Source of the DNA: an uncultured Clostridia bacterium
GTDB lineage: Bacteria > Bacillota > Clostridia > Christensenellales > Borkfalkiaceae
Direction of reading: 5' to 3'
Assembly (NCBI GenBank): GCA_947624805.1
Contig: CANQLW010000006.1
Location: forward strand, 1-48,262
DNA: 48,262 nucleotides
The position numbers and the translations under genes were made by a program. Under the pieces are notes generated by a model that was not told the DNA's origin, made no database searches, and saw nothing but the letters and a program-made list of their open reading frames with translations. Below are positions 12,342-41,748 of this stretch, in pieces (the first letter of the stretch is position 1; the number at the start of each line of letters is the position of its first letter).

Positions 12342-12368
12342 ATAGTATTATGTCTGACATAATACTAT
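12342..12368. repeat. Dyad repeat copy A (core TATGTC-N-GACATA)
   Basis: A perfect inverted repeat with 13-nt arms around one base: ATAGTATTATGTC, T, GACATAATACTAT. It starts 2 nt after the ATP-grasp stop codon and precedes the leuS terminator. It belongs with copies at 15989, 36543 and 39792. It is strikingly AT-rich against GC-rich neighbours. Confidence 0.85.
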
Positions 12369-12396
12369 GTAAAACCTCAAAAATGTGTAAAAACAA

Positions 12397-12425
12397 GCTC
12401 CGAGCACGCTCGGAGCCTGTTTTTT
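12397..12425. terminator. Bidirectional terminator between ATP-grasp gene and leuS
   Basis: GCTCCGAG (12397-12404) pairs with CTCGGAGC (12409-12416) around CACG. A run of T follows on the plus strand and GTTTTTAC follows on the minus strand, serving both convergent genes. Confidence 0.88.
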
Positions 12426-12433
12426 TCTTACTG

Positions 12434-14863
12434 TCAGCCGACGATCAGATTGACGAGTCTGCCCTTGACCACGACGCATTTTTTCAGCGTCTTTCCTTCC
12501 GTGCGGGCAGTGACTTCGGGAAGGGCGAGCGCGGCAGTCTTGATCTCTTCGTCGGTGGCGTCGCTCGGGAGCATCGCCTTGCAGACGATCTTGCTGTTGA
12601 CCTGAATGGCGTATTCCGTTTCTGCGAGCCTGAGCGCCGAGGGATTTTCAACGGGATATTTCTGTTCGAAGACAAACCCTTTGCCGCCCGTCTGCTCGAA
12701 GAGTTCTTCCGCAAAATGGGGCGCGCAGGGGGCGAGCATCAGGATGAGGTCTCTCACCGATTCCTTGAAGAGCTTTGCGTTCTTCTCGCCCGGGAGAGCG
12801 TCGTATTTGTACAGTGCGTTCGTGAACTCCATCATACGGGCGATCGCCGTGTTGAAGGAGAAGGACTCCATATCGCGGGAGACCTGACGGATGCAGTAGT
12901 TTCTTGCATAGTCGAGCGCACGTTCCTCGCGCTCGAAGGGGCCGTAACCGAAGTATTCGTTGGATTTGAGCGCGATCTTTTCCACCCTGTCCATGAACCT
13001 CGAGATCGCTTTGATCCCGTCATCGCTCCAAGGACCGCCCTCCGTATAGGAGAACCCGAACATCAGATACATTCTGAACGCGTCTGCGCCGTATTCCTTG
13101 ATATAATCGTCGGGAGAGACGACGTTGCCGTGCGATTTGGACATACGGTTGCCGTCGGGACCGAGGATGACGCCCTGATGGACGAGCCGCTTGAAGGGCT
13201 CATCGAAGTCGAGATACCCCATATCCCGAAGCGCCTTTGTGAAGAATCTTGCATACAGCAGGTGCATACAGGAGTGCTCGGCGCCGCCGACATAGGTATC
13301 GACGGGAAGAAGCCTGTCCACGGCCTCTCTGTCAAAGGGCTCCTTGTCGTTGTGCGGATCTGCATAGCGCAGGAAGTACCAGCTCGAGCAGACGAAGGTG
13401 TCGAGCGTGTCGGGATCCCGTTTTGCGGGACCGCCGCACTTCGGACAGGTCGTATTCATGAATTTTTCATGCTTTGCGAGGGGGGACTTCCCATCGGGAC
13501 GGAATTCGACGTCGTAGGGGAGCTTGACGGGCAGATTTTTCTCGGGCACGGGGACGGCGCCGCACTTTTCGCAATGGATGATGGGGATAGGCGCCCCCCA
13601 ATAGCGCTGGCGGGAGACGAGCCAGTCGCGGAGACGGTAATTGATCTTCTTTCCGCCTTTCCCGATCTTGCTGATGTAGGAAGCGATCGCGCTTCTGGCC
13701 TCTTCGCCGCAGAGCCCGTCAAATTGCAGAGAACCGACGACGATCCCGTCTTCCGTGTAGGGGAGTACCGTCTCGCCGCCCTGTTTTTCGATGACTTTCA
13801 CGATGGGGAGACCGTACTTTGTCGCAAAGGCGAAATCTCTCTCGTCGTGGGCGGGGACCGCCATCACCGCGCCCGTGCCGTAGGAATAGAGCACATAATC
13901 GGCGAGATAGACGGGGACTTTCTTCCCGTTGACGGGATTCGTGCAGTACGCTCCCGTGAAGACGCCCGTCTTTTCTCTGGTCGAGGAGAGACGTTCGATC
14001 TCGCTCGAGCGGGCGGCATAGTCGATGTAAGCCTCCACGGCCTCGCGCTGCTCCGGGGTCGTGATCTTGAGGGCGAGGGGATGCTCGGGCGCCAGAACGA
14101 CGTAAGTCACGCCGAAAACGGTGTCGGGACGGGTCGTATAGACGCGGAAGGTGTCGCCGCTCTCGCATTCAAACTCGATCTCGCAGCCCGTGGACTTCCC
14201 GATCCAGTTGCGCTGCATATTCTTTGTCTTCTCGGGCCAGTCGAGGTCGATGAGCCCCGAGAGGAGTTCCTCGGCATATTCCGTGATCTTAAAGAACCAC
14301 TGCGTCAGGTTTTTGCGGACGACGGGCGTATCGCAGCGTTCACATTTGCCGTCGATGACCTGCTCGTTCGCGAGCACGGTGTTGCAGGAGGGGCACCAGT
14401 TGACGGGCGCCTCTTTTCTGTACGCGAGTCCCTTCTTATAGAGCTGAAGGAACATCCATTGCGTCCATTTGTAGTATTCCTCGGTGCAGGTCTTGACCTC
14501 TGCCGACCAGTCGAACATGGCGCCCATGGCCTTGAGCTGCTGTTCCATCGTGGCGATGTTCGCCTCGGTGGAATCCTTGGGGTGCACGCCCGTCTTGATC
14601 GCATAGTTCTCTGCGGGGAGCCCGAACGCGTCGAATCCCATCGGCTGGAACACATTGTAGCCCTGCATCCGCTTGAAACGTGCATAGGAATCGGCGGGAC
14701 CGTAGTTATACCAATGCCCCACATGGAGTTTGGCGCCCGAGGGGTAAGAGAACATCTCAAGGACATAGAATTTCTTCTTTTCGGTGTCCTTGACGTCGAA
14801 ACGGTTGAATTTCTCCTTCTCCCAGCGCATCTGCCATTTTTTCTCGATTGCTTTAATATCCAT
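12434..14863 (-). CDS. leuS: Leucyl-tRNA synthetase
   Basis: An 809-aa class I synthetase charging tRNA-Leu. The HIGH-type motif is HVGH (residues 47-50 in [14 protein letters not shown]) and the KMSKS motif is RMSKS in [13 protein letters not shown] zinc knuckle is present (WCPSC and CERC). The CP1 editing domain carries [20 protein letters not shown] and [17 protein letters not shown], whose aspartate anchors hydrolysis of mischarged amino acids. The anticodon-binding and C-terminal domains are complete and the length is normal. The ATG has AGGAG 5-6 nt upstream. Its promoter at 14884-14912 leaves a short leader, so there is no leucine T-box. The large open frame on the opposite strand is a shadow. 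Confidence 0.97.
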
Positions 14864-14883
14864 ATTTCTCCTTTCGAATCCTC

Positions 14884-14912
14884 ATTTTACACGATTCATG
14901 CGGAGAAGTCAA
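14884..14912 (-). promoter_or_regulatory. leuS promoter
   Basis: On the minus strand TTGACT (14912-14907), a 17-nt spacer and TAAAAT (14889-14884). The start site would lie about 15 nt before the ATG at 14863, leaving room for the ribosome-binding site but not for a T-box. Confidence 0.78.
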
Positions 14913-15045
14913 GCGCAGAGGGGTAAAAATTGGGAATTCTTACACATTCCCGACCATTTTCCCCTTATTTTTCATGATTTTTTGCCGATCGTCACCACAG
15001 GAAACTCGCGTAAATAAATCGGAGAAAGAAGCATACAATAATTGC

Positions 15046-15732
15046 GTGGAAGAAATCACGGTCTCGGACGGCATCGAAAACAGCCTGTTCATCACCTATC
15101 TATACAACGCGCTGTCGGGCGTGCTCTCGCGTACGGGCGGAGGAGAGGAACTCATGTTCGGCGCCGAACGTGCCGCCCTGCGCATCCGTTCTCAGGACAC
15201 AGAGGCGGCACTCCTGCTCCGAGAATTGCTCACGGAGATCATCGGGATCGGCTATAAATATCGTTATCTCGACGCCAATCTGAAGGTCGCCCTCTCGAAA
15301 CGGGACAGAAAACTGCTCTGCGCGGCGCTCATCGCGGCGGATTATGAGGGGGATAAAGGGTATATCGCGAGAAAGATCGGGCAGAGCGATGAGTACAACA
15401 TCGACGGGATCTACCTCTTCCGCCTCGGCCCGCTCAAGGAGAAGTGGCAGCACATCGTCGAATACGTCCCGGGCGGGTTCACGGGGAGCGACCTCAAACA
15501 ATTCTGCGATTTTCTCGTGGGGGAGAGCCGTAACAAGATCTATCTCAGGGGGAAAACCGTCTTCGGCGAGAATTTCCGCCCGCTCCGCCGCAGCCTTCTG
15601 CTCGGCGAAGAGGACACGGAGGCAGAGATTATGCTCTCGGATGCAGGGTATGTCTACTGCCTCGGGGACGTGGGCGAGGAGCTCAGCGATTTCCTGCAAA
15701 AATTTTATGCGGAACGGGCCATATTCTCTTGA
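15046..15732 (+). CDS. Possible YtxC-like protein upstream of thrS
   Basis: A soluble protein of about 228 aa. A central helical part (YNIDGIYLFRLGPLKEKWQH and on) has the spacing of the FxFExFxxFRLKxY region of the putative sporulation protein YtxC. The end (MLSDAGYVYCLGDVGEELSDFL) recalls YtxC's C-terminal beta-hairpin and helix. Location right before thrS is also where ytxC sits in many Bacillota. This resemblance is weak, so treat it as a suggestion. The start is unsure: the frame is open from 14974, but GTG at 15046 begins the globular part; GGAGAAAG lies about 20 nt upstream and a TACAAT box 6 nt upstream. The thrS promoter overlaps its stop. Confidence 0.6.
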   Translation: MEEITVSDGIENSLFITYLYNALSGVLSRTGGGEELMFGAERAALRIRSQDTEAALLLRELLTEIIGIGYKYRYLDANLKVALSKRDRKLLCAALIAADYEGDKGYIARKIGQSDEYNIDGIYLFRLGPLKEKWQHIVEYVPGGFTGSDLKQFCDFLVGESRNKIYLRGKTVFGENFRPLRRSLLLGEEDTEAEIMLSDAGYVYCLGDVGEELSDFLQKFYAERAIFS

Positions 15733-15757
15733 CAAAGGCGAAAAAGAAGATTACAAT
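15729..15757 (+). promoter_or_regulatory. Promoter of the thrS T-box transcript
   Basis: TTGACA (15729-15734), a 17-nt spacer and TACAAT (15752-15757). The -35 box overlaps the stop codon of the preceding gene. Confidence 0.82.
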
Positions 15758-15763
15758 AAATAT

Positions 15764-15969
15764 ACTTAAAGACAAGTAGCGCCGAGGGCGTCATCCCAGA
15801 GAGCGGATCCGTGGCTGGAAGATCCGTATGAGGACTCGGAGAGCGAAACCGCTTTATTTCAGACAATCGGTGTAAAAGAGGCTCTTTGTAGAGCAATTAA
15901 GGTGGAACCGCGCAAAGGGAATTTGCGTCCTTAAATGAACCCGAAAGGGGAATTTTGAGGGCGTTTTTT
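15764..15969 (+). ncRNA. Threonyl T-box leader of thrS
   Basis: This leader senses uncharged tRNA-Thr and controls transcription into thrS. The conserved T-box AAGGTGGAACCGCG (15899-15912) is present. Upstream lie the stem I features AAGTAG, AGAGAG and GGCTGGAAGATCC. The sequence GAA-ACC-GC near 15846 puts ACC, a threonine codon, where the specifier should follow the GAA of the S-turn. The terminator is CGTCCTTAAA (15926-15935) with TTTGAGGGCG (15954-15963) and a T6 run (15964-15969). It competes with an antiterminator built on the T-box. Only the exact specifier position is uncertain. Confidence 0.93.
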
Positions 15970-15988
15970 GTTTTTTCGCGATAAGCGA

Positions 15989-16010
15989 AGTACTATGTCA
16001 GACATAATGG
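15989..16010 (+). repeat. Dyad repeat copy B, between T-box terminator and thrS ribosome-binding site
   Basis: AGTACTATGTC-A-GACATAATGG: the core TATGTC/GACATA is intact and the left flank GCGAAGTAC is identical to copy C at 36546. The right flank has run into the AATGGAGG ribosome-binding site of thrS, so protein bound here could block translation start or the promoter-distal leader. Confidence 0.75.
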
Positions 16011-16021
16011 AGGTAAAAACC

Positions 16022-17980
16022 ATGAAAATTTCACTCAAGAACGGGGATCTGCTCGAAGTTGCGGACGGAGCGACCTGCTACGATGCCGCGCTCGTGATCT
16101 CGGAGGGACTTGCACGGAATGCCGTTGCCGCCAAGGTGAACGGCGTGCTCGTCGATCTCAAATCTTCCCTGAAAGAGGGGGACGGCCTCGAGCTCGTCAC
16201 GCTCAAGGACAAGGAGGGACTCGAAGTCTACCGCCATACCTGCGCTCATGTGCTCGCGCAGGCGCTCAAAACCATCTATCCCACCTGCAAACTCGCGATC
16301 GGACCCGTGATCGACAACGGCTTCTACTACGATGTCGACTTCAAGACGCCCATCACGATGGAGGATTTTTCCAAGATCGAGGCGGAGATGAAGGCGATCA
16401 TCAAGAGCAATCTGCCCATCGAACGCTTCACGCTTCCGCGGAACGAGGCGATCGCCCTCATGGAAGGGTTCAGCGAAAACTACAAGGTCGAGATCATCAA
16501 GGATCTTCCCGAGGACGCCGAGATCTCGTTCTATAAGCAGGGCGCATTCGTCGATCTCTGCCGCGGGCCCCACCTTCCCTCGACGGGCAAGATCAAGGCG
16601 TTCAAACTCCTTTCCATCACGGGGGCATACTGGAGAGGGGATTCGAGCAAAAAGATGCTCACCCGTATCTACGGCACCGCCTTTGCCAAGAAGGACGAGG
16701 TGGATGCCTACATCCTTCAGCTCGAGGAGGCAAAAAAGCGCGACCACAACAAGCTCGGCAGAGACCTCGGCATCTTCATGACGAGCGATGTCATCGGCCA
16801 AGGCCTTCCCATTCTCATGCCGAAAGGGGCGAAGATGCTTCAGATCCTCACCCGTTTCGTCGAGGACGAGGAAGCGCGGCGCGGGTTCATGATCACCAAG
16901 ACCCCCAACATGGCGAAATCCGACCTCTACAAGATCTCGGGGCACTGGGCACATTACCGCGACAAGATGTTTGTGCTCGGCGAGATCGACGAGCACGGCG
17001 AGGCCATCGATAAGGACGAAGAGATCATGGCGCTCCGTCCCATGACCTGCCCGTTCCAGTATCAGATCTATAAGAACGGCTTAAAATCTTACCGTGATCT
17101 GCCCTGCCGCTATTCGGAGACGGCGACCGAGTTCAGGAACGAGGCATCGGGCGAGATGCACGGGCTCATCCGCATCCGCCAGTTCACCCTCTCCGACGGG
17201 CACATCATCTGCACCAAGGAGCAGGTGGAGGACGAATTCAAGCGCTGTCTCGATCTTTCCTATTATATTCTCGATTGCCTCGGAATGCGGCAGGACGTCA
17301 CCTTCCGCTTCTCCAAGCGCGGGAAATCCAAGTCCGATAAATATATCGACGACGACGAGGCATGGAATGCAACGGAGGCGATGATGAAGAAGATCCTCGA
17401 CGATCTCGGGCTCGACTATGTCGAGGCGGACGACGAAGCCGCCTTCTACGGTCCCAAGCTCGACGTGCAGACAAAGAACGTCTACGGCAAAGAGGACACC
17501 CTCATCACCATCCAGATCGACTTTGCCGCGGGGCACAGCTTCGGCATGGAATATGTCGATGCGGACGGCACCCGCCAGACCCCTTATGTCATCCACCGCA
17601 GCTCCATCGGCTGCTATGAGAGAACGCTCGCCATGCTCATCGAGAAATACGCGGGCGCCTTCCCGCTCTGGTTTGCGCCTGAGCAGGTCAAGGTTCTCCC
17701 CGTCACGGACAGAGCGGCGGACTATGCGAAGGAGCTCGTCGAAGAGCTCACCGCGGTCGGCATCCGCGCCTCCGCCGATTACCGCAACGAGAAGATCGGC
17801 AGGAAGATCTTTGACGCCGAGCAGGAGAAGGTACCCTATAAACTCGTCGTCGGCGACAAAGAAGTGGAGGACGGCAGCGTCTCGGTGAGAAAGCGCGGCG
17901 CGGGCGACATCGGCTCCATGGCAAAGGACGACTTCATCGCCCTCGTCGTCGAAGAGGACGAAAACAAAGTCATCTTTTGA
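16022..17980 (+). CDS. thrS: Threonyl-tRNA synthetase
   Basis: A 652-aa class II synthetase. The TGS domain covers residues 1-60. The N-terminal editing domain carries HTCAH and DLCRGPHLPSTG, which hydrolyse Ser-tRNA-Thr. The catalytic core has the zinc ligands Cys (LRPMTCPFQ), His (SDGHIICT) and His (PYVIHRSSIG), plus class II motif 2 in RYSETATEFRNEASGEMHGL. The anticodon domain closes the protein. GGAGG lies 8 nt before the ATG at 16022; the frame is open upstream only through the T-box terminator. It is controlled by the T-box in front of it. Confidence 0.97.
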   Translation: MKISLKNGDLLEVADGATCYDAALVISEGLARNAVAAKVNGVLVDLKSSLKEGDGLELVTLKDKEGLEVYRHTCAHVLAQALKTIYPTCKLAIGPVIDNGFYYDVDFKTPITMEDFSKIEAEMKAIIKSNLPIERFTLPRNEAIALMEGFSENYKVEIIKDLPEDAEISFYKQGAFVDLCRGPHLPSTGKIKAFKLLSITGAYWRGDSSKKMLTRIYGTAFAKKDEVDAYILQLEEAKKRDHNKLGRDLGIFMTSDVIGQGLPILMPKGAKMLQILTRFVEDEEARRGFMITKTPNMAKSDLYKISGHWAHYRDKMFVLGEIDEHGEAIDKDEEIMALRPMTCPFQYQIYKNGLKSYRDLPCRYSETATEFRNEASGEMHGLIRIRQFTLSDGHIICTKEQVEDEFKRCLDLSYYILDCLGMRQDVTFRFSKRGKSKSDKYIDDDEAWNATEAMMKKILDDLGLDYVEADDEAAFYGPKLDVQTKNVYGKEDTLITIQIDFAAGHSFGMEYVDADGTRQTPYVIHRSSIGCYERTLAMLIEKYAGAFPLWFAPEQVKVLPVTDRAADYAKELVEELTAVGIRASADYRNEKIGRKIFDAEQEKVPYKLVVGDKEVEDGSVSVRKRGAGDIGSMAKDDFIALVVEEDENKVIF

Positions 17981-18018
17981 TCGTAAGCGGCAAGACCGCG
18001 GAAATTAGGAGAGATCCC

Positions 18019-18501
18019 ATGAAAAAATTTCGCTATCATATCCTGAGCATCCTCTTGGTCTGCTTTGCGGCGGTCCTGCTCCTCTGTGCGTGCGGATGCA
18101 AGTGCGGCACGGACGGCGCCTGTGCTACGGGAAACGGGCTCGTGTTCAATAAGAAGTATGTCCACGGCGCCTTCGGAGAGGAAAGAGAGAACTACTTTAT
18201 CTTCCGTGAAGACGGGACGGGGGACTTTGTCCGCAACTGGGATTTTGAATATACTGCGGCCCAGCACTACACCATGCACTTCAAGTGGTTCTATGCGGAT
18301 AAAGACGAGTCTGCCGTCGTATGCTTCTACGACGGTTGGGAAAAAGACCCGGTCAAACACGAAGGAGCGTCGGTCAATGACGACACCACCTATCTCGTCA
18401 CCATCTCGGGATATGTCCTCTGTTCGAACAACGGCACCTCGACCGCCTATTACATCAACGAGGATTACGTCGACGGGCTCCAGAATTACGCGAAGGACTG
18501 A
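18019..18501 (+). CDS. Putative lipoprotein, unknown function
   Basis: A 160-aa exported protein. The start MKKFRYHILSILLVCFAAV gives a basic N-terminus and hydrophobic core, ending LLLCACGCKCG, where a lipobox-type cysteine (LCAC or ACGC) could be lipidated. The mature part is about 130 residues, rich in Tyr, Phe and Asp, and looks like a small beta-rich domain; I recognise no family. AGGAG lies 6-8 nt before the ATG. It starts 38 nt after thrS with no terminator between, so it may be co-transcribed, though the two have no evident functional link. Confidence 0.75.
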   Translation: MKKFRYHILSILLVCFAAVLLLCACGCKCGTDGACATGNGLVFNKKYVHGAFGEERENYFIFREDGTGDFVRNWDFEYTAAQHYTMHFKWFYADKDESAVVCFYDGWEKDPVKHEGASVNDDTTYLVTISGYVLCSNNGTSTAYYINEDYVDGLQNYAKD

Positions 18502-18549
18502 CTTTTCCCGTGACGGGACGAAAAAATCGGAAAATAGTCCCAAAAACAC

Positions 18550-18578
18550 TTGACAAAAGGGTTTGCTTATGATAAAGT
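18550..18578 (+). promoter_or_regulatory. Promoter of the infC operon
   Basis: TTGACA (18550-18555), a 17-nt spacer and TAAAGT (18573-18578), giving a leader of about 140 nt before the ATG at 18726. Confidence 0.65.
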
Positions 18579-18584
18579 ATCAAC

Positions 18585-18725
18585 GTCAAGCAGAGGTGAA
18601 CCCTTCTCCCCGCGATCGCAGAGGCGATACGGGTCAATGATCTTTCGGATGTGCCGCGGTGAATCCGCGCATTACAAAGTTCAACGGGTTTGTCTGTGCA
18701 AACCCGTTTATTTTTTGAGAGGAAC
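18585..18725 (+). ncRNA. Probable ribosomal protein L20 leader (infC attenuator)
   Basis: The long leader ends in a terminator-type hairpin: AACGGGTTTG (18683-18692) pairs with CAAACCCGTT (18699-18708), then TATTTTTTG. The upstream GTGAACCC (near 18596) can pair with the GGGTT of that hairpin and so act as antiterminator. Bacillota infC-rpmI-rplT operons are autoregulated by L20 through such an attenuator. Gene order and layout match; the detailed L20-binding fold was not verified. Confidence 0.7.
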
Positions 18726-19244
<519 letters not shown>

Positions 19245-19274
19245 AACCGATAAATATTTTGGAGGAATACAGTT

Positions 19275-19475
19275 ATGCCCAAACAGAAATCGCACAGCGG
19301 TTCGAAAAAGCGCTTCTGGCTCACGGGATCCGGTAAGGTGAACAGGGCTCACGGCGGCAAGAACCACAAGGCAGAGACCAAGAACAGAAAGAGAAAGAGA
19401 AATCTGCGCAAATCCACGCTCGTCTCCGAGACGCAGGAAAATACCGTCAAGCGCATGATTCCCTACAAGGATTAA
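19275..19475 (+). CDS. rpmI: 50S ribosomal protein L35
   Basis: A 66-aa, highly basic protein of the large subunit: MPKQKSHSGSKKRFWLTGSG, then KVNRAHGGKNH and a Lys/Arg-rich stretch (NRKRKRNLRK). The sequence, size and position between infC and rplT are diagnostic. GGAGG lies 10 nt before the ATG. Confidence 0.97.
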   Translation: MPKQKSHSGSKKRFWLTGSGKVNRAHGGKNHKAETKNRKRKRNLRKSTLVSETQENTVKRMIPYKD

Positions 19476-19488
19476 CGGAGGGTAGAAT

Positions 19489-19839
19489 ATGAGGATTAAG
19501 AGAGGCGTAAACGCCGTTAAAAAACGTAGAAAGATCTTTAAGCTGTCCAAAGGCTATTTCGGATATAAGAGCAAGAACTATCGCATCGCCCGTCAGGCGG
19601 TGATGAAGTCCCTCAAATACGCTTATATCGGCAGGAGACTGAGAAAGCGCGATATGCGTTCGCTCTGGATCGCCCGTATCAATGCAGGCGCACGGATCAA
19701 CGGGCTTTCCTATTCCAAGCTCATCCACGGGCTCAAAGTTGCGGGGATCGGTCTGAACCGTAAGATCCTCGCGGATCTCGCCGTCAACGACGCGGCAACT
19801 TTTGCCGACCTCTGCAGCAAGGCGAAAGCCGCCCTGTAA
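19489..19839 (+). CDS. rplT: 50S ribosomal protein L20
   Basis: A 116-aa protein of the large subunit with the N-terminal RNA-binding extension ([20 protein letters not shown]) and globular domain ([20 protein letters not shown]). It assembles 23S rRNA early and, in this operon type, represses its own transcript through the leader at 18585. GGAGGG lies 6 nt before the ATG, and the stop precedes a terminator. Confidence 0.97.
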
Positions 19840-31192: not shown

Positions 31193-32062
31193 TTATTTGA
31201 TGACCCTTGAGCAAGCGATCGCGAGTGCCCCGGGCCCGATGTGGCAGGAGACCGACAGGGACAGCGGATCGATGAACGTGAGGGGAACGGTCGGGAAGAC
31301 GGCCTTCACTTCCTCCGCGAAGATCTTCGCCTCCGTGTCCTCCGCCGTGTAGGCGATGGAGACCTGCATCACCCCGTTTTCGACAAGCGTTTTGAACCGT
31401 GTCTCAAAGTCCTTGGCGATCGCGGCGATCATGGTCTCCTTTGCCTTTCGCAGCGTATTGACCTTTTTGAACGCGTCGAGCTTTTCGCCTTGGATCTGCA
31501 AGACGGGTTTAATCTTGAGAATGGTGCCGATGAGCGCCGCGGCGGGGGTGAGCCTTCCGCCTTTTTTCAGATATTTGAGCGTATCGAGCGAGATATAGAT
31601 GCTGCTGTCGAACTTGGTTTTCAGCAGGATCTCTTTGATCTCCGCCGCGCTCTTGCCCTGACCTGCGAGGGTGATTGCGTCATAAACGCTCTGCCGCTGC
31701 GTAATGGAGATTCTTTGGTTATCGACGACCTGCACTCTCCCGCCATAGCTCTTTGCAAGGCTCTCTGCCGTATGGCAGGATTCCGAGAGACCGCTCGACA
31801 TGGGAATATGCACGATCTCGCTCCCGTCGCTCAAAAGTTCGTCCCAAAGGTCGGTCACGCTGCCGACGGCGGGCTGGGAAGTCGAAACGTTCGCGTCGCC
31901 GCGAAGATGGACATAAAATTCTTCCTGTGTGAGGTTGATATCCTCAAAATACTCTTTGCCATCGATGAGAAAGGGCATCGGGATCACGAAAATTCCCAGT
32001 TTTTTCGCGTCCGCCTGTGTGATGCCGCTGTTCGAATCGGTGACGATCTTGACCCTTGACAT
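31193..32062 (-). CDS. DegV family fatty-acid-binding protein
   Basis: A 289-aa DegV protein. These bind a fatty acid and hand it to the FakA kinase for phospholipid synthesis. N-terminal VKIVTDSNSGITQADAKKLG, then STSQPAVGS and the acyl-binding signature IPMSSGLSESCHTAESLA are clear. LKYLKKGGRLTPAAALIG and LKIKPVLQIQGEKL are family blocks. The frame opens with GTG at 32068, but the ATG at 32062 has CGGAGAG at better spacing. No fakA is in the window. Single gene with its own promoter (32100-32128), divergent from nfnA. Confidence 0.93.
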   Translation of the reverse strand: MSRVKIVTDSNSGITQADAKKLGIFVIPMPFLIDGKEYFEDINLTQEEFYVHLRGDANVSTSQPAVGSVTDLWDELLSDGSEIVHIPMSSGLSESCHTAESLAKSYGGRVQVVDNQRISITQRQSVYDAITLAGQGKSAAEIKEILLKTKFDSSIYISLDTLKYLKKGGRLTPAAALIGTILKIKPVLQIQGEKLDAFKKVNTLRKAKETMIAAIAKDFETRFKTLVENGVMQVSIAYTAEDTEAKIFAEEVKAVFPTVPLTFIDPLSLSVSCHIGPGALAIACSRVIK

Positions 32063-35183: not shown

Positions 35184-35188
35184 ATGAT

Positions 35189-35217
35189 TTGACAGAACGA
35201 AAAAGGCGTGTTATAAT
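35189..35217 (+). promoter_or_regulatory. Consensus promoter ending 9 nt before the thioesterase ATG (leaderless candidate)
   Basis: TTGACA (35189-35194), a 17-nt spacer and TATAAT (35212-35217): near-perfect sigma-A promoter. The ATG at 35227 is only 9 nt past the -10 box, so the leader would be about 3 nt, with no ribosome-binding site possible. Confidence 0.88.
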
Positions 35218-35226
35218 TTCAGTATC

Positions 35227-35973
35227 ATGGAAGGTTATTGCAACAGAAAAACATATGAATTGCGCTATTCCGACTTCGATTTCAAGGACGAGCTGACGAT
35301 GACTGCGCTCCTCGCGCTCGTGCAGGAGTCTGCTTGCCGCAGCGCTGACGAACTCGGCTTCGGCTATGACGATCTCCGCCCGCTCAACTTCGGGTTTCTG
35401 GTCGTCAATACCTATTGCCGCCTGAAACGGCCGATCCGCCTCGGGGAGAATATCACCATCGAGACATGGCCGCTGCCGCCCCGCCACGTCATATTCGAGC
35501 GTGATTACCGCGTGCTGTCGGGAGAGGAGGAGGTTGCCGCCGTCGCTTCCCGCTGGTGCCTCGTTGATATGGGCTCATTTGCGATGCTCACGCCCGATAA
35601 AATGGGGGAAGTGCACGAAAAATGCCCTTATCGGAATGAAAAGACGGTCGAAGTCCCGTCATGGAAGATCCCGAAGCTCACAGAGGACGCACGGGAAGTC
35701 TACACTATGCAGGTTCGGCAGAGCCACTGCGACCACTATATGCACGCCAACAATACGCAGTATCTCGACTTTTTCGGCGACTGCTTCACGATGGACGAGC
35801 TTGCCGCCCGCCGCATTTCCTCTTTCCAGATCTCCTACCAGAAACAGGCGAAGGAGGGGAAGGAGCTCCGCCTTTACCGAAAAGATTTTGACGGCTACAC
35901 GGTCTGCGAGGCGAGAGCGGACGGGGAGCTTTTGACACAGTTCCGCGTGGATTTTTGCGGGGAAGAGGTATGA
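35227..35973 (+). CDS. Acyl-ACP thioesterase family protein
   Basis: A 248-aa double hot-dog thioesterase of the FatA/bacterial acyl-ACP type, which releases fatty acids from the carrier protein. The first hot-dog includes YELRYSDFDFKDELTMTALL and ESACRSADELGFGYDDL, followed by FGFLVVNTYCRLKRPIRLGE and ASRWCLVDMGSFAMLTP. The second holds SHCDHYMHANNTQYLDFFGD, with the Asn-His region of the active site. Length fits the bacterial members. The strong promoter at 35189 nearly abuts the ATG. Its stop overlaps the next gene by ATGA. Confidence 0.88.
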   Translation: MEGYCNRKTYELRYSDFDFKDELTMTALLALVQESACRSADELGFGYDDLRPLNFGFLVVNTYCRLKRPIRLGENITIETWPLPPRHVIFERDYRVLSGEEEVAAVASRWCLVDMGSFAMLTPDKMGEVHEKCPYRNEKTVEVPSWKIPKLTEDAREVYTMQVRQSHCDHYMHANNTQYLDFFGDCFTMDELAARRISSFQISYQKQAKEGKELRLYRKDFDGYTVCEARADGELLTQFRVDFCGEEV

Positions 35974-36434
35974 AAGTCGACAAACCCGCCGTTGCCAAAT
36001 ATGTCAGGTTCCGAAAAAAGCTCCTGATCGCGGTCAGCATTGTCGTGCTGCCTATCCTTATGGTCTGTCTCGTGTTCGCCTGTCTCGGCTATGCGGCATT
36101 CTGGATCATATCGCCCGCGGTCGCGATCGGCTACATCGTCTTCTATGCCTTCTATGCGATGAACGTCTCCATGGGGACGGTGATCGGGTTCGAGGCGACG
36201 GATCTTGTCGTGCATCTCACGACAAAGCGCAGAACCTATACCTATGACGTAAAACGCGGTTGCGTCGGCATCAGGACGACGAAGCGGAAGTTCATCGCGA
36301 CATTTGAGACGCAGGACTCGCGGGACACATTCACGTTTTATCGTCGGACGCCTTTCACGAAATCGTACGAAGAGCAATTTACGCCCGATGAGATCGCCGT
36401 CTTTTATCCCGAGATCCTGAATATGATCTCCTGA
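35970..36434 (+). CDS. Small two-TM protein with PH-like C-terminal domain, unknown
   Basis: A 154-aa protein. A basic N-terminus precedes two membrane segments (KLLIAVSIVVLPILMVCLVF at about 17-37 and a second at 42-66). The C-terminal 85 residues form beta strands (VIGFEATDLVVHLTTKRRTY and FIATFETQDSRDTFTFYRR) ending in a helix, like a bacterial PH-type domain; this is inference. It overlaps the thioesterase gene (ATGA), so the two are translated together. The overall plan resembles the next gene, at 36715. No family recognised. Confidence 0.7.
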   Translation: MKVDKPAVAKYVRFRKKLLIAVSIVVLPILMVCLVFACLGYAAFWIISPAVAIGYIVFYAFYAMNVSMGTVIGFEATDLVVHLTTKRRTYTYDVKRGCVGIRTTKRKFIATFETQDSRDTFTFYRRTPFTKSYEEQFTPDEIAVFYPEILNMIS

Positions 36435-36439
36435 ATTTT

Positions 36440-36478
36440 GTGCGCCCGCCGACAATGTCGGCAGGCGCACAGCTTTTA
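36440..36478 (+). terminator. Terminator after the thioesterase operon
   Basis: GTGCGCC (36440-36446) with GGCGCAC (36464-36470) and GCCGAC (36448-36453) with GTCGGC (36457-36462), one C-A mismatch between, then AGCTTTTATC. The region 36435-36714 otherwise holds repeat copy C and a promoter. Confidence 0.75.
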
Positions 36479-36542
36479 TCGCTACTCCCTTTTCATCGCG
36501 GAGGAGAGGGGAAAATTGAAATGAAAATTTGGTTTTTCTCGT

Positions 36543-36579
36543 TTTGCGAAGTACTATGTCAGACATATTATATCGCAAA
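36543..36579. repeat. Dyad repeat copy C (core TATGTC-A-GACATA) with terminal inverted repeats
   Basis: The core GTACTATGTC-A-GACATA sits inside outer arms TTTGCGA (36543-36549) and TCGCAAA (36573-36579). The 22 bases from GCGAAGTAC through GACATA are identical to copy B at 15986-16007. It lies in an AT-rich gap before the next promoter. Confidence 0.85.
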
Positions 36580-36623
36580 TCCCCTCAATTCGGGGCGAAA
36601 AGAAATCAAATGGCCCGAAAACT

Positions 36624-36652
36624 TGACGGAGCGCGGCGTCCGTGATATAATA
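36624..36652 (+). promoter_or_regulatory. Promoter of the two-TM protein-cysteine desulfurase-thiI operon
   Basis: TTGACG (36624-36629), a 17-nt spacer and TATAAT (36647-36652), with a leader of about 55 nt and AAGGAG before the ATG at 36715. Confidence 0.8.
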
Positions 36653-36714
36653 TCAAAGCAGTGCGGGCAGTCATTGGATGCGCCCGTGCGACACGTCCGA
36701 AGGAGTGAGCTTTG

Positions 36715-37314
36715 ATGCAGAGAAATACATTATATGAGGAAAGCGCGATCTCGAACATCGAGGAAAAGGAGAGGAAGTTCTATAATTTTTTTCATATTCT
36801 CTCCATCATCTGCTTTGTGATCGCGGCGATTTTGGCGTTCTTTTCCGTCATGGTCATCCAGTCCTATCTGTACGGCGAGTATGAGACGGCGCAAAAGGTC
36901 GTAGGCATCGCTTCGCAGGTCTTTTTTATTCTGCTCATGATCGGCGCCGCGCTCATTTTTCTTTTTATCAAGAAAAAGTTCAATCGTAGCTACGATTATT
37001 CGTTCGTGGAGGATGAACTTCGCATCACGCAGGTCTTCAACGGCAAATCCAGAAAGTTTTTGACGACGGTCAGGGCGGATCAGATCCTCAAGATCGGTTG
37101 GTATGGAAAGCCCTCCTATGAAAATACGGTGCGCGGCCTGAAAAAGAAACCCGTCTGGCTCACCCCGAACAAGTCGCCCGCGGACGGTAAAGAATTTATT
37201 TATGTGTTTACGAGCGGAACGCTCGGCAATACGCTCTATATCCTCGAGTGCAGGCGGGAACTTCTGGAGTGCCTCGTGAGAGCGGCGGGCGTCACTAAGC
37301 TGGAGAGAGAATGA
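36715..37314 (+). CDS. Two-TM protein with PH-like domain, unknown
   Basis: A 199-aa protein. After 25 polar residues come two membrane segments (HILSIICFVIAAILAFFSVM at about 28-50 and ASQVFFILLMIGAALIFLFI at 66-85). The cytosolic part starts DYSFVEDELRITQVFNGKSR, a beta-rich stretch resembling a bacterial PH-type domain, and ends in a helix (RRELLECLVRAAG). The plan is close to the protein at 35970. I cannot name the family. AAGGAG lies 9-10 nt before the ATG. It overlaps the cysteine desulfurase gene by ATGA. Confidence 0.78.
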   Translation: MQRNTLYEESAISNIEEKERKFYNFFHILSIICFVIAAILAFFSVMVIQSYLYGEYETAQKVVGIASQVFFILLMIGAALIFLFIKKKFNRSYDYSFVEDELRITQVFNGKSRKFLTTVRADQILKIGWYGKPSYENTVRGLKKKPVWLTPNKSPADGKEFIYVFTSGTLGNTLYILECRRELLECLVRAAGVTKLERE

Positions 37315-38432
37315 TTTATTTCGATAACGCGGCCACGACGAGGCCTAATCCCGAGGCGCTTGAACGTGCCAAAGAATTTACAGAGGGATTGTTTTACAAC
37401 CCTTCCGCCAAGTACGGCGGGGGGTTTTCCGTGCGGAAGCAAATCGAGACATTTCGCGGGGATCTCCTCCGATTCTCCCATGCGGAGGGGAGATATGATC
37501 TTATTTTCACCTCCTGCGGGACAGAGGCGGATAATCACGCGATCTTTTGCGGCGGGCGGCGCGGGAATGTCGTGACGACGCAGGGGGAACACGCCGCGGT
37601 CTTCTCCGCCTGTACGGAATTGAAAAACAGGGGCGTTGAGCCCCGTTTTGCGCCTGTTTTACGGGACGGGAGCGTGGATGTCGGCGCACTTTTGTCCATG
37701 GTCGACGAAAAGACGAGTCTCGTCTCCGTTGTTCACGTCAACAATGAGACGGGCGCCGTCAACGACATCGCGGCGATCGCCAAGGCCGTAAAGGCCAAAA
37801 ATCCGCGTACGCTCTTCATGAGCGACGGCGTACAGGCGTTCGGGAAACTGGATTTTACGCTCCCGAAGGAGGTCGACCTCTATGCGGTGAGTGCGCATAA
37901 GATCGGCGGGCTCAAAGGGACGGGGGCGCTCTTTAAACGCAAGGGGGTCGCAATCGGCCCGTATCTCTTCGGCGGTGGACAGGAGGCGGGCCTCAGAAGC
38001 GGCACGGAAAACACCTTCGGGATCGCCGTTTTTGCCTATGCCGCCGAGAAAAAGTTCTCGAATCTCAGGGCAGATGCTGAAAAATTACTCGCTTTCCGTG
38101 AAAAACTTGCCCAAGGCCTCGATCCCGAGATTTTTTCAAGGCTTTCCCCCGAAAGCGGGTCGCCCTATATCCTCACCGTCTCGGCGGCAGGGATGCGCGG
38201 CGAAGTGCTTCAGCGGATGCTATGGGACAGAGGACTCTGCGTCGGGACGGGCAGCGCGTGCTCGTCCAAGAATCGATTCAGCCGCGTCATGACCGCCTGC
38301 GGTTATCCCGAAAAGGTGCTCGACGGAGTGCTCAGGATGAGCTTTTCCCCGAATACCGCCGAGGAAGAGATCGACAGCGCGGTCAGGATCTTAAACGAAA
38401 CGGCAAGAGAATATCAAAGGAATACACAGTAA
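37311..38432 (+). CDS. Cysteine desulfurase (NifS/IscS family), thiI partner
   Basis: A 373-aa PLP enzyme turning cysteine into alanine plus an enzyme-bound persulfide. MIYFDNAATTRPNPEAL is the family start. The PLP lysine is in AVSAHKIGGLKGTGALF and the sulfur-carrying Cys in GTGSACSSKN. GQEAGLRSGTENT is conserved. Its gene overlaps thiI, so it most likely feeds sulfur to ThiI for 4-thiouridine in tRNA, as NifZ does in B. subtilis. No iscU or sufU gene is adjacent. Confidence 0.94.
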   Translation: MIYFDNAATTRPNPEALERAKEFTEGLFYNPSAKYGGGFSVRKQIETFRGDLLRFSHAEGRYDLIFTSCGTEADNHAIFCGGRRGNVVTTQGEHAAVFSACTELKNRGVEPRFAPVLRDGSVDVGALLSMVDEKTSLVSVVHVNNETGAVNDIAAIAKAVKAKNPRTLFMSDGVQAFGKLDFTLPKEVDLYAVSAHKIGGLKGTGALFKRKGVAIGPYLFGGGQEAGLRSGTENTFGIAVFAYAAEKKFSNLRADAEKLLAFREKLAQGLDPEIFSRLSPESGSPYILTVSAAGMRGEVLQRMLWDRGLCVGTGSACSSKNRFSRVMTACGYPEKVLDGVLRMSFSPNTAEEEIDSAVRILNETAREYQRNTQ

Positions 38433-39583
38433 TGGAAAAAGTCGTCATCATCCGCTATGCGGAGATTCATCTGAAGGGAAAGAACCGTAACTACTTTGAG
38501 CGCATATTTGCGATGAACCTCGAACGCGCGCTCAAGGGCATCCGCCATGAACTGCACCGCACGAGCGGCAGGTATCTTGTCGCCGACTTCGAGGAAGGGC
38601 AGACGGACGAGATCATGCGGCGCATCTCCCGCGTGTTCGGGGTACATTCCTACTCCACGGGGCTCTTGGTCGATGCCGATGAGGGCAGTATTTTTGCCGC
38701 CGCAAAGACGTTCGCGCCGACGAGCGGGACGTTTAAGGTCGAAACGCACCGGGGGGATAAGCACTATCCGCTCACTTCCATGGAGATCAATGCAAGGATC
38801 GGCGGCAGGCTCCTCGACGCCATTCCGACGCTCCGCGTAGACGTCCATGCGCCCGAACACACCGTCTATATCGATATCCGTGAAGGGCACAGGGCGCTCG
38901 TGTTCGGCTCTTTTGAAGACGGGCCACACGGGATGCCCGTGTCGACAGCGGGGAAGGGACTCCTCCTGATCTCGGGAGGGATCGATTCTCCCGTCGCGGG
39001 GTTTATGATGGCGAAGCGGGGGCTTACCGTCGAAATGCTGCATTTTCACAGCTATCCCTATACAAATGAAGCGGCGAAGGAGAAGGTCGTCGCCCTGTCG
39101 AAGATCTTGTCCGAGTATTCGCTCGTGACGCGCCTGACGACGGTGAAAGTCACTCACATTCAGGAGGAGATCCACAAAAAGTGCGCCGCCGAGCTCAACG
39201 TGACCCTATTAAGACGCTTTATGTTCCGCATTGCCGAGCGGATCGCCGCGCGGGTGGGGGCGAAATGCCTCGTGACGGGGGAGAGCCTCGGGCAGGTCGC
39301 GAGCCAGACGATGGAGGGGCTGACCTCGTCCAACGCCGTCGTCACGCTTCCCGTCCTTCGTCCGCTCATCGGATTCGATAAAGAGGACATCATCTCGATC
39401 GCTAAAAAGATCGGCACGTTCGAGACTTCCGTGCTTCCGTACGAGGACTGCTGTACCGTTTTTCTGCCCGATTATCCCGCGATCAGGCCGAAACTCTCCT
39501 TCATCGAAGAGGAGGAGAAGAAGCTCGACATTGAAGCGCTCGTCAGTGAGGCGCTGGAAAGCGCGGAGATCATTCGCTTTTAA
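38432..39583 (+). CDS. thiI: tRNA 4-thiouridine synthase ThiI
   Basis: A 383-aa enzyme that adenylates U8 of tRNA and inserts sulfur. Residues 1-60 are the N-terminal ferredoxin-like domain (YAEIHLKGKNRNYFE), followed by the THUMP domain (about 60-165). The PP-loop ATPase is LLISGGIDSPVAGFMMAKRG. There is no C-terminal rhodanese domain, as is usual in Bacillota, so the persulfide comes directly from the desulfurase. The ATG overlaps the desulfurase stop by one base (TAATG) with AAAGGAA upstream. The 3' end overlaps the PBP gene on the opposite strand by 4 bases. Confidence 0.95.
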   Translation: MEKVVIIRYAEIHLKGKNRNYFERIFAMNLERALKGIRHELHRTSGRYLVADFEEGQTDEIMRRISRVFGVHSYSTGLLVDADEGSIFAAAKTFAPTSGTFKVETHRGDKHYPLTSMEINARIGGRLLDAIPTLRVDVHAPEHTVYIDIREGHRALVFGSFEDGPHGMPVSTAGKGLLLISGGIDSPVAGFMMAKRGLTVEMLHFHSYPYTNEAAKEKVVALSKILSEYSLVTRLTTVKVTHIQEEIHKKCAAELNVTLLRRFMFRIAERIAARVGAKCLVTGESLGQVASQTMEGLTSSNAVVTLPVLRPLIGFDKEDIISIAKKIGTFETSVLPYEDCCTVFLPDYPAIRPKLSFIEEEEKKLDIEALVSEALESAEIIRF

Positions 39584-41748
39584 TCCCACCAGTTGTCGGG
39601 GAGCGCCGTCTCGCTCTCGATCCTGACGAGGGGGAGAAATACGGTTTCGCCCTCCGTTCCCCGATAGAGCGGCGTTACGCTGTAGCGGTAACTTTCTCCC
39701 GCGCGTACGGAATTGTCGCAAATGATTTTTTGATATTTCCCATGATAAATCGTGGCGATCTCGCCGCGATTTTCTCTTTTTATGAGATAATCATAGTATT
39801 CTGTCTGACATAGTACTATGCTAACGGTCCCATTTTTGACGGAAATTGTCGGTGTATCGATACGGGGAAGGGAGTAGCGGGTACTCGTCTCGAGCGGCGT
39901 ATTTTTCTTGAAGAGCTCTTTTCTGTCCGTTGCGAGCGGGGCAAGGGGATCGGCGAGGAGCACCCGATGGTTCGTCTCGTACTCTTTCCGATCATAGGCA
40001 AGCTCTTCAACTCCGTCGCATTGGGGGATCGCGGCGGGCGTATGGTCTGCATAGATTTTTTTCAGGGTCTCCCGCGCGAGGTTTGCGGGGAGCCCGCCTC
40101 CCGTCACGGAAAAGGGGGAGTTGTCCCTGTTGCCCATCCATACGGCGACGGTGTCCTCGGACGTATAGGAGATCGTATAGGCGTCCGTGTTGCCCCCGAA
40201 TCCCTCGGCGGTCCCCGTCTTGGCGTAGACGGGGAAGGGAAGAGAGCGGAGCGCGCGTGCCGTTCCCTCCGTTGCGGCCGTTTTCAGCATATCGCTCAGG
40301 AGGTAGCTCGTCTCCTCCGAAAAGACTCTTGTAGCATTCTCCGAGCGGCTGTAAACTGTCTTTCCCTTTTCATTTTCGATACGCTCGATCGTGCGTGACG
40401 GCGTGAACATTCCCCCGTTTGCAAAGGTCGTATAGGCATCTGCAAGCGCCGTGAGGGGGAGTCCTTCCCGCATTCCGCCGAGCGCGAGGGCGAGGGAGTA
40501 ATCGCTCTCATCGACGTGCAAGCCCATTTTTTCGAGATATTTTGCCGCTTTTTCACATCCGATCGTGTTCAGGAGCTTGACGGCGGGGATGTTCACGCTG
40601 TGGGACAGGGCGTATCTGGCGCTCATGTATTCTCCGCTCGCGCCGCCTGCATCATCGGGGCAGTATCCTCCGAAATCCGTCTTTTCGTCGAGGATCGGCG
40701 TCGCGGGGCAGATGTAATCCTCCTCGATCGCGGGGCCGTAGACGAGAAGGGGTTTTAAGGTGGAAGCAGGCAGGCGCTTCGGCGTTCCGCAGGTCGAATA
40801 GAGCGCCTTCATGGCGTGGGCGGCGTTGTCCTCAACGGCGATGCACACATCGCAGTCGGCTTCTGTCTCACAGAGCGATCTTTGAAGCGCGCTGTCGAGG
40901 TAAGTATGGATCTTCAGCGAGCCCATCTCTTTCCAGTCGGGCAGGATCTCGGAGAGCTCCCCGAACACGGCCTCCAGATAACTGTCCGATCCCTTTCTTT
41001 GCGCGGGAAGGGCGGGAAGGGGTTCTTCCAAGGCAGTTTGATACGCATTTTCGTCCAGATAGCCCTGTCCGACCATCAAGGAGAGTACAAAATCCCGCCG
41101 CGATCTGCACGTTTCGGCATCTTTGAAGGGGGAATATCGATTGGGTGAGCGGACGAGCGCGGCGAGCGTTGCTGCTTCCGAAGGCGTGAGCTCCTCCGCC
41201 TCTTTTCCGAAGTAAAAGACGGATGCGTCTGCGATCCCGAATGCGTCGTGTCCGAAGTAAATGGAGTTGAGGTAGAGCTCGAGGATTTCCCTTTTGCTGT
41301 ATTTTTTCTCGAGACGGCGGGTGAGTTTGATCTCCCGAAGTTTTCTGGCGATCGTCTTTTCGCTCGACAGATGTGTATTTTTTATGAGTTGCTGGGAGAT
41401 GGTCGAGGCACCCTCCCGAAAGGAAAACGACTTGATATTTTTGAGGAACGCGGCGCAGATGCGTCTGTAATCCAGCCCGTTGTGCGTATAAAAGCGTTTA
41501 TCCTCGACCGCAACGAAGGCGTTCGGCACATAGGAGGGGAGATCGTCGATCGAGACATTTCTGCGCTGCGCCGTCTCGATCTGCTCGCCGTCTGCGTCGA
41601 AGAGCCTCACGCAAGCCGTCGACAGCGTCAGTTTCTCCGCGTCGAGCCTCACGCCCGCCGTCACGCCGACGGCGTAAACACAAGCGGCGAGAAAGAGGAC
41701 AAAGAGTATGCCCGCCGCAATCAAAATTCCCTGAAAGACCCGTTTCAT
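39580..41748 (-). CDS. Class A penicillin-binding protein (transglycosylase/transpeptidase)
   Basis: A 722-aa bifunctional peptidoglycan synthase. One membrane anchor is near the N-terminus. The GT51 transglycosylase has EDKRFYTHNGLDYRRICAAF with its catalytic Glu, GASTISQQLIKN and KREILELYLNSIYFG. The transpeptidase has STLK (nucleophile Ser in LPASTLKPLL), SHSVN and KTGTAEGFGG. A C-terminal extension of about 110 residues follows. A TTG start at 41772 would add 8 residues; neither start has a good ribosome-binding site. Repeat copy D lies within the C-terminal extension and encodes SIVLCQTEYY. It is convergent with thiI and divergent from the sirtuin gene. Confidence 0.93.
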   Translation of the reverse strand: MKRVFQGILIAAGILFVLFLAACVYAVGVTAGVRLDAEKLTLSTACVRLFDADGEQIETAQRRNVSIDDLPSYVPNAFVAVEDKRFYTHNGLDYRRICAAFLKNIKSFSFREGASTISQQLIKNTHLSSEKTIARKLREIKLTRRLEKKYSKREILELYLNSIYFGHDAFGIADASVFYFGKEAEELTPSEAATLAALVRSPNRYSPFKDAETCRSRRDFVLSLMVGQGYLDENAYQTALEEPLPALPAQRKGSDSYLEAVFGELSEILPDWKEMGSLKIHTYLDSALQRSLCETEADCDVCIAVEDNAAHAMKALYSTCGTPKRLPASTLKPLLVYGPAIEEDYICPATPILDEKTDFGGYCPDDAGGASGEYMSARYALSHSVNIPAVKLLNTIGCEKAAKYLEKMGLHVDESDYSLALALGGMREGLPLTALADAYTTFANGGMFTPSRTIERIENEKGKTVYSRSENATRVFSEETSYLLSDMLKTAATEGTARALRSLPFPVYAKTGTAEGFGGNTDAYTISYTSEDTVAVWMGNRDNSPFSVTGGGLPANLARETLKKIYADHTPAAIPQCDGVEELAYDRKEYETNHRVLLADPLAPLATDRKELFKKNTPLETSTRYSLPRIDTPTISVKNGTVSIVLCQTEYYDYLIKRENRGEIATIYHGKYQKIICDNSVRAGESYRYSVTPLYRGTEGETVFLPLVRIESETALPDNWWD
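39792..39820 (-). repeat. Dyad repeat copy D inside the PBP coding sequence
   Basis: On the minus strand CATAGTACTATGTC-A-GACAGAATACTATG: 14-nt arms with two mismatches, centred on the same core as copies A-C. It is read in frame, encoding SIVLCQTEYY within the C-terminal extension. AT-rich compared with the surrounding codons. Confidence 0.82.

Follow-up and report, generated by a model that had tools for sequence, protein, structure and literature searches.

What joins the four copies of a short dyad that were noticed in a 48,262-nucleotide stretch of a Clostridia chromosome (hereafter, the window)? Dyad copies were present at all four places given in the initial annotation, and the core that it described, TATGTCWGACATA, occurred as three exact copies (12349–12361, 15994–16006 and 36555–36567) and one copy with a single mismatch (39800–39812). 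Its judgment that chance was an unlikely origin was upheld; a scan of the window gave 16 matches with up to three mismatches relative to 3.48 expected, and 16 or more were reached in 0 of 100 shuffles. Copies B and C have 22 bases in common, GCGAAGTACTATGTCAGACATA, and by predicted gene calls three copies (A, B and C) are intergenic and one (D) is intragenic, as had also been described.

Site A (12342–12368) is a perfect 27-bp dyad, ATAGTATTATGTCTGACATAATACTAT, between two convergent genes, a RimK-like open reading frame ending at 12340 on the plus strand and leuS ending at 12434 on the minus strand. Because both of its arms match the long-arm consensus equally, site A is without clear polarity. 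Site B (15985–16008, plus strand) reads GCGAAGTAC-TATGTCAGACATA-AT and lies 15 bp before the start of the threonyl-tRNA synthetase gene thrS (16022–17980, plus strand), a position that is also occupied in other species. The third copy, site C (36542–36567, plus strand), reads TTTTGCGAAGTAC-TATGTCAGACATA and is intergenic, 147 bp before an open reading frame at 36715–37314. Site D, the one-mismatch copy (39792–39821), reads GCATAGTAC-TATGTCAGACAGA on the minus strand and lies within a transglycosylase/transpeptidase (penicillin-binding protein) gene (39580–41748, minus strand), near codon 646 of 723. Among the window sites, it alone has its better orientation opposed to the contig's GC skew; in the other orientation it has two mismatches. 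An RNA element was considered and rejected: tRNAs were the sole Rfam matches in the window, and variants such as TATGCGTGACATA break the pairing instead of keeping it.

The initial annotation proposed counting the core across the genome and in close relatives, and both counts bore it out. In the 1.72-Mb genome, there were 15 exact cores and 23 sites with at most one mismatch, and a backward-read control gave 0. The exact core was present in 58 of 61 genomes of the same genus, which together held 513 sites relative to one place in the backward control, with 0–34 sites per genome. In the wider sample of the family, 88 of 151 genomes had an exact core; many genomes had few, with 0–3 in genus g8. 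A variant, TATGYGTGACATA, examined in a test for a motif shift in g8, was found at 0–8 copies per genome in 35 genomes and at 41 copies in genome G087, where 17 core sites were also present. This variant lies within ~250 bp upstream of the matched N-terminus of a PadR-domain protein in 12 of 17 g8 genomes, and because it is widespread and so placed, it was taken into the consensus. Open-frame length and site number were related with a Spearman coefficient of 0.24 (p 0.08; 55 genomes), and this correlation was dropped. The exact core string had no match in the literature searched.

A palindrome in many copies, some intragenic, whose number varies among the 61 genomes could be a small mobile repeat of the REP or RPE type, spread by insertion, and the initial annotation had offered such an element as one of its two readings. 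A site within miaA contradicted it. The codon position of this site was constant in 29 of 29 readable same-genus loci, where the site was exact in 23, had one mismatch in four and two mismatches in two. An alignment of 18 sequences had no gap column among the 35 around the site, and the flanking motifs of MiaA were 24 residues apart in genera with or without the site, the exceptions being a spacing of 22 in two g2 loci and of 25 in a g18 locus. A solved MiaA (2qgn) also aligned gap-free at this position. The codons that make up the site were there before it, and their synonymous positions are frozen. The pattern of an inserted repeat with empty sites in relatives (REP, RPE) failed at miaA, the sole locus examined; judged from these aligned sequences, the mobile repeat is refuted for miaA, and we give it virtually no chance as an account of the sites in general.

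The other reading in the initial annotation was that the dyads are operators of one dimeric regulator, to be recognized by a matching site near its own promoter, and a protein answering to this was found. P0001 (G000:C3:48026-50185, minus strand) combines a PadR domain with a long linker and, at its C-terminus, about four membrane helices predicted from hydropathy alone. Residues 33–104 match Pfam PF03551 (E 2.4e-19; 69.5 bits, cut-off 27), and the protein has the winged-helix domain of the PadR family. Its best solved relative is 1xma (E 1.4e-24); another solved PadR relative, 5dym_A (117 residues), is presumably cdPadR1. The PadR protein was matched in 58 of the 61 same-genus genomes, as a single copy in 57. 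All 34 relatives that we fetched, two of which (L201 and L202) are doubtful orthologs, have 3–5 predicted C-terminal membrane stretches, at lengths of 387–993 amino acids; such a protein would not be the small soluble transcription regulator usual for the family. A coiled-coil tether, which we had assumed first, was not supported, the heptad contrast of P0001 being 1.56 versus 1.83 (sd 0.20) in shuffled sequences. P and G residues leave no long uninterrupted stretch in the linker of many relatives.

The promoter of the P0001-type gene is the place of the most conserved site. Within the genus, 23 of 30 PadR promoters have a site (up to two mismatches) 77–85 bp before the start, and the promoter dyad lies upstream of the −35 box. 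Sites were also found in the PadR promoters of genera g5, g8, g10, g11 and g14. The protein is present in genera without sites as well; three exact cores were counted in 45 genomes of the six genera without a site in the fetched PadR promoters, relative to 180 in the 81 genomes from seven others. A PadR protein of Clostridioides binds TACT(N11–12)AGTA in its own promoter (PMC5050560). The promoter dyad here is of this TACT-N11/12-AGTA form. Over its 27 bp, the full site, TTTGCATAGTAC-TATGYSWGACATA-AT, is asymmetric, and its right arm mostly reads AATA instead of AGTA (15% of 62 places have G at +7), so that the match to TACT-N11-AGTA is full on one side only. We compiled 157 sites, mostly from a search with a 17-mer carrying one long arm, and their arm statistics are therefore biased toward the long arm.

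A promoter copy would be expected of an ordinary transcription regulon, in which a PadR-family repressor acts on operators at its own gene and many others; autoregulation and binding to dyads of this sort are known for PadR proteins (PMC5050560). The remaining places of the sites fit such a regulon badly. Predicted coding sequences contain 34 of the 157 sites, a further 21 lie between convergent genes, and the neighbors of the sites are unrelated housekeeping genes.

Their distribution along the chromosome, which throughout rests on draft genomes for the placement of the terminus, confined the sites to the terminus half. Terminus contigs of six genomes held 56 sites (up to one mismatch) in 1,173,400 bp and dnaA contigs of 10 genomes, which were picked irrespective of sites, held none (up to two mismatches) in 382,531 bp, a density ratio that is inflated because sites had already been noticed on the long terminus contigs when these were selected. 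Among 20 genomes with a full exact-core listing, the dnaA contig was without a listed site in 19, the exception being G190. In four genomes, 20 of 21 exact-core or YGTG-variant sites were within 131 kb of a xerS-like gene. The gene strand flips within ~4 kb of this gene in five of five contigs, and on contig C2 of the window's own genome the flip falls in the same 10-kb bin as the xerS-like gene. In 11 of 11 loci, a dif-like palindrome was present within ~0.7 kb upstream of the xerS-like gene, and its consensus had been derived from these same loci. The PadR gene is 44–72 kb from dif in the four contigs with both (G121, G175, G199 and G039); if its product is a terminator, the terminator gene would lie within the array and have a promoter site, as in a fork trap.

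The sites form two opposed polar groups around dif. Toward the dif-like palindrome pointed 46 of 55 sites (84%), and nine pointed against it, four of them in G087:C7; one symmetric site was set aside, and orthologous sites within these counts are non-independent. Leading-strand coding amounts to 77–91% in terminus contigs, so a tendency to follow transcription could by itself yield the overall 84%. Sites in coding sequences had the orientation of transcription in 29 cases, the opposite in one and were symmetric in four; for the tandem class these numbers were 53, 13 and 10, and an 8-kb majority test left the matter undecided. The rules of transcription and replication can be told apart only by the seven sites that touch lagging-strand genes only, and seven of seven pointed toward dif (three of these may be one orthologous site). 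We had at first favored orientation by transcription only, and gave it up since sites next to genes on the lagging strand, that in the PadR promoter among them, follow replication. This orientation, together with the lack of sites in the dnaA contigs, also counts against the regulon, which we consider improbable. Of the operator claim, what stands is that the sites fit one dimeric regulator-type protein.

Sites that face dif, with a XerS/dif-type locus at the strand flip, might also be orienting sequences for an FtsK-type translocase. Motifs of this type (KOPS, AIMS) are spread over the whole chromosome, and the sites here, with none in the dnaA contigs, are not. The motif here is a long dyad common to the PadR promoter, whereas the known motifs have only seven or eight bases (PMC5357621), and we regard a translocase signal as very unlikely.

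With modest confidence, we propose that the sites are a polar array centered on the terminus, likely bound by the membrane-anchored PadR protein and probably fork-trap-like or terminus-anchoring. On the side facing the terminus, the strong core dyad would be occupied by a first PadR dimer of the P0001 type, the likely binder of the consensus; on the side facing the origin, the weaker dyad that overlaps it, CATAGTACTATG, would provide a second contact. A fork arriving from its own origin side would run through the sites; one that has gone past dif would reach the core before the rest of the site and be held there. The predicted membrane helices may additionally tie the terminus region to the membrane.

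Such a tie could be the whole function. A PadR protein might link the terminus to the membrane or divisome with no arrest of forks, in the manner of MatP/matS, RacA or RocS, with polarity serving, for example, the loading or removal of a translocase. The clustering at the terminus, the predicted C-terminal membrane stretches and the tens of sites in some genomes (the window's own and G087) agree with this account, and RacA and RocS are a precedent for membrane tethering by HTH proteins (PMC6593407, PMC11500499). A plain anchor needs no polarity, yet most sites face dif, and the site is asymmetric over its 27 bp; we find this account possible but rather doubtful.

The polar array may amount to more. 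We advance only tentatively that it is a third, independently evolved termination system, in which a membrane-anchored PadR protein and tens of polar sites converging on dif would combine fork trapping with membrane fixing and join termination, anchoring and dimer resolution. The array looks like an apparently undescribed bacterial way to stop or anchor replication at its end, and among the matches listed, in mostly open-access literature, none functionally tied a PadR protein to replication termination. Known fork traps are limited to a few groups of Proteobacteria (Tus) and a few Bacillus (RTP) (PMC10331603). If true, a PadR-based membrane-anchored trap shared by a family of gut Clostridia would solve the same problem in a new way; it would couple the terminus physically and directly to the membrane and allow a natural test of the reasons for which fork traps are maintained, and the PadR domain would serve chromosome biology, beyond transcription. 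The site, the dif-like palindrome and the protein also provide a sequence handle for mapping termini in unfinished MAGs.

MatP/matS has dispersed sites within one chromosomal domain, and we know of no polarity on record for matS or ram. Like these systems and RocS, the array combines features of dispersed sites in one domain or a membrane-tethered HTH protein (PMC6593407, PMC11500499), but the protein families differ. It is not of the MatP/matS kind, the candidate protein being a PadR protein and the sites polar, and it differs from RacA/ram in that ram is densest near the origin (PMC6593407) and the sites here are near the terminus. With cdPadR1 (Clostridioides difficile) and PadR-s2, the candidate has in common the PadR domain and the TACT-N11-AGTA dyad in its own promoter (PMC5050560). 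Unlike cdPadR1, a small transcription regulator, it has a linker and predicted membrane helices fused to this domain, and its putative sites mark the terminus.

Among known terminators, RTP is small and soluble, in contrast to the 387–993 amino acids, linker and predicted membrane helices of the candidate here. The Tus fold is unrelated to the PadR-type protein, and the Ter sites of Tus are not dyads. As in Tus/Ter of Enterobacterales, there are polar sites on both sides of dif, and the putative terminator gene has a site in its own promoter, just as the tus promoter contains TerB, occupied by Tus (PMC8707476). Unlike the dimers proposed here, Tus works as a monomer with polar action (PMC10331603). 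PadR-s2 dimers resemble RTP of B. subtilis in winged-helix dimer topology, with only the folds compared (PMC3506622), and a profile of eight PadR domains against PDB sequences gave 54 matches to E 10, none of them named RTP or Tus. The B site of RTP is strong and its A site weak (PMC10331603); the asymmetric sites here likewise pair a strong dyad with a weaker one that overlaps it and stand, as ter sites do, in two opposed groups around dif. The fork trap of B. subtilis has nine ter sites (PMC13220808), fewer than the putative trap here. The terI and terII sites of B. subtilis are ~0.1 kb apart (PMC13220808), and close pairs were likewise found here near the xerS-like gene, with sites 18–19 bp apart in contig C2 of the window's own genome, G039, L066 and L072.

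The initial annotation had listed four copies of a palindromic TATGTC-A-GACATA-type core in the window and judged so many unlikely by chance. All four were confirmed where it had placed them; as delimited here, the sites span 12342..12368 (A), 15985..16008 (B, plus strand), 36542..36567 (C, plus strand) and 39792..39821 (D, minus strand). In addition, TATGTCWGACATA occurred at 16 places in the window at up to three mismatches, compared with 3.5 expected. The whole source genome (1.72 Mb, 112 contigs, with the window as contig C6) held 15 exact cores and 23 places at up to one mismatch, whereas the core read backward, our control, gave 0. Conservation in relatives was likewise borne out; exact cores were present in 58 of 61 same-genus genomes and in 88 of 151 genomes of the family. 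The 17-mer GTACTATGTCWGACATA matched at least 119 stretches in a scan of named genomes, and the 80 matches listed were all from Bacillota, nearly all metagenome-assembled genomes, with Candidatus Gallimonas and Candidatus Borkfalkia among them.

A consensus drawn from 62 occurrences of the core TATGYSWGACATA across 12 contigs, with each site's better AGTAC arm setting its orientation, reads TTTGCATAGTAC-TATG(T/C)(C/G)(A/T)GACATA-AT. The left extension TTTGCA, which lies beyond the arm by which sites were oriented, shows conservation (T 82%, C 61%, A 68%), whereas the mirror positions on the right showed no conservation in the same 62 places. Thus, the site consists of two overlapping dyads, CATAGTACTATG and TATGTCWGACATA, about 8.5 bp apart, which give it a direction. 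In the termite-gut genome Lab288P3bin202 (loci L033, L048, L086 and L092) the site is extended differently; flanks resembling GGCA..GGGTTTTT often follow the core, with some of the copies lying in close pairs.

A mobile palindrome, the other reading offered in the initial annotation, was not borne out at miaA, the one locus examined. Thirty same-genus loci were fetched, and in all 29 readable at the site its codon position was identical (consensus STMSDI), with 23 exact copies, four with one mismatch and two with two. In the 18 genes extracted in full by script, the codons AGT ACT ATG TCA GAC ATA formed the most frozen window, with a synonymous excess of 1.0 (median of 245 windows, 0.24), and no gaps were present in the 35 alignment columns around the site. 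The spacing between the flanking motifs GYKE and YAKRQ was 24 residues in 30/30 same-genus loci, in other genera with the site (g8, g10, g11) and in genera without it (g3, g5, g6, g7, g14, g16); leaving out one unread g14 locus, the exceptions were both g2 loci (22) and the g18 locus (25). The solved MiaA structure 2qgn (B. halodurans) aligns gap-free through the region. Fixed codon position, motif spacing and gap-free alignment rule out an inserted element at miaA.

The probable position of the replication terminus was taken from a XerS-like recombinase gene (contig C2 of the source genome, 31702-32730; loci L005, L368) and a dif-like palindrome just upstream of it (31539-31566). This palindrome, TATTCGTAAAAGCTGYRTTTTRCGAATA, lay upstream of the gene in 11/11 loci with 0–5 mismatches to a consensus derived from those same loci. 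The gene matched NCBIfam XerS with an E value of 9e-55, below that model's cut-off. Gene strand flipped within ~4 kb of it on five long contigs, and in the same 10-kb bin on C2; GC and AT skew flipped nearby too, except for GC skew in G087:C7. Descriptions of XerS/difSL concern streptococci and lactococci (PMC5357621), so the XerS-like single-recombinase system of Borkfalkiaceae may be new.

The sites cluster at this inferred terminus. The 23 in the source genome were confined to 8 of its 112 contigs, which hold 19% of the bases; 21 random places fell on 17.9 contigs on average, with a minimum of 11 in 20,000 trials using partly interpolated contig sizes. The dnaA contig carried no listed site in 19 of the 20 genomes with all exact cores listed (exception G190, 61 kb apart), a result weak alone because contigs are many and short. 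At up to two mismatches, AGTACTATGYSWGACATA was absent from the dnaA contigs of 10 genomes (382,531 bp); terminus contigs of six genomes, picked for their known sites (1,173,400 bp), held 56 at up to one mismatch and 71 at up to two. In four genomes picked after clustering had been noticed (G121, G199, G039, G175), 20 of 21 exact core or YGTG sites lay within 131 kb of the XerS-like gene. G087 carried 17 core and 41 variant sites across many contigs, and none on its dnaA contig, C4. Genomes are drafts, genes were called with a simple script, and orthologous sites are not independent of each other.

When sites (at most one mismatch, six contigs) were read with the long arm facing the origin, 46 of the 55 pointed to dif and nine did not; one further site was symmetric. 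Leading-strand genes make up 77–91% of coding, which equals the pointing fraction, so this count alone cannot separate replication from transcription. Sites touching only lagging-strand genes do separate them: 7/7 followed replication, three of these being possibly one orthologous site. Near the XerS-like gene, site pairs were spaced 18–19 bp apart (C2 of the source genome, G039, L066, L072), and in G175 two opposed sites were separated by 0.3 kb. In the window, sites B and C agree with contig skew, A is symmetric and D is opposed. Right before site B, a T-box-like stretch bearing AAGGTGGAACCGCG along with a terminator-like run lies upstream of thrS (15899-15975), where Rfam at gathering thresholds made no T-box call.

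The regulator with a matching site near its own promoter that the initial annotation envisaged has a predicted counterpart in P0001 (L007:8527-10686, minus strand), in which a long, charged linker joins an N-terminal PadR domain to predicted hydrophobic helices at the C terminus. Two sites lie in its promoter. Its first 149 residues matched in 58/61 same-genus genomes (E ≤ 1e-15) and 127/151 family genomes (E ≤ 1e-10). Among 30 same-genus loci, 23 had a site of up to two mismatches 77–85 bp before the start, with a TTGACA-like box directly downstream of it; in five the scripted start fell inside the site, and two were unread. The gene is on the lagging strand, 44–72 kb from dif, in G121, G175, G199 and G039, with a promoter site that follows replication in each of these genomes. 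At up to one mismatch, the site was present in promoters fetched from g5, g11 and g14, in 2/3 from g8 (the third start mis-called) and in 1/2 from g10; g3, g7 and g18 had looser or displaced forms. No site at up to three mismatches was found in 12 promoters of g2, g6, g9, g13, g16 and g17, two g9 genes being doubtful orthologs. The 45 genomes of these six genera held three exact cores, compared with 180 in 81 genomes of g3, g5, g7, g8, g10, g11 and g14; the protein is kept also in genera without these sites. In its own promoter, a Clostridioides PadR binds GTACTAT(N2)ATTATA(N)AGTA, or TACT(N11-12)AGTA (PMC5050560). In G002 (95% complete) only a 38-residue piece matches (C1:107391-107504), the gene being lost, broken or absent from the assembly, and six exact sites remain.

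By analogy, location, polarity flip at dif, paired dyads, promoter site and PadR fold together match the hallmarks of a fork trap; P0001 is the likely binder, and fork arrest and membrane location are proposed. As the core faces the terminus, a fork that overruns would reach the stronger dyad first, the order in RTP/ter. The strong and weak overlapping dyads resemble the B and A sites of the RTP fork trap (PMC10331603; PMC13220808), the site in the likely binder's own promoter resembles TerB, which Tus occupies in the tus promoter (PMC8707476), and the PadR fold is described as sharing topology and dimer organisation with RTP (PMC3506622).

Three to five C-terminal hydrophobic helices were predicted in 34/34 fetched P0001 relatives. 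To our knowledge, RTP and Tus have no counterpart to them. The predicted helices suggest membrane anchoring, as in RacA and RocS (PMC6593407; PMC11500499). Analysis of the P0001 linker gave no support for a coiled coil. The linker, highly charged in the source genome, is highly variable between PadR domain and helices, with proteins of 387–993 aa among the 34 relatives (L139-L202) and open frames of up to 1223 aa.
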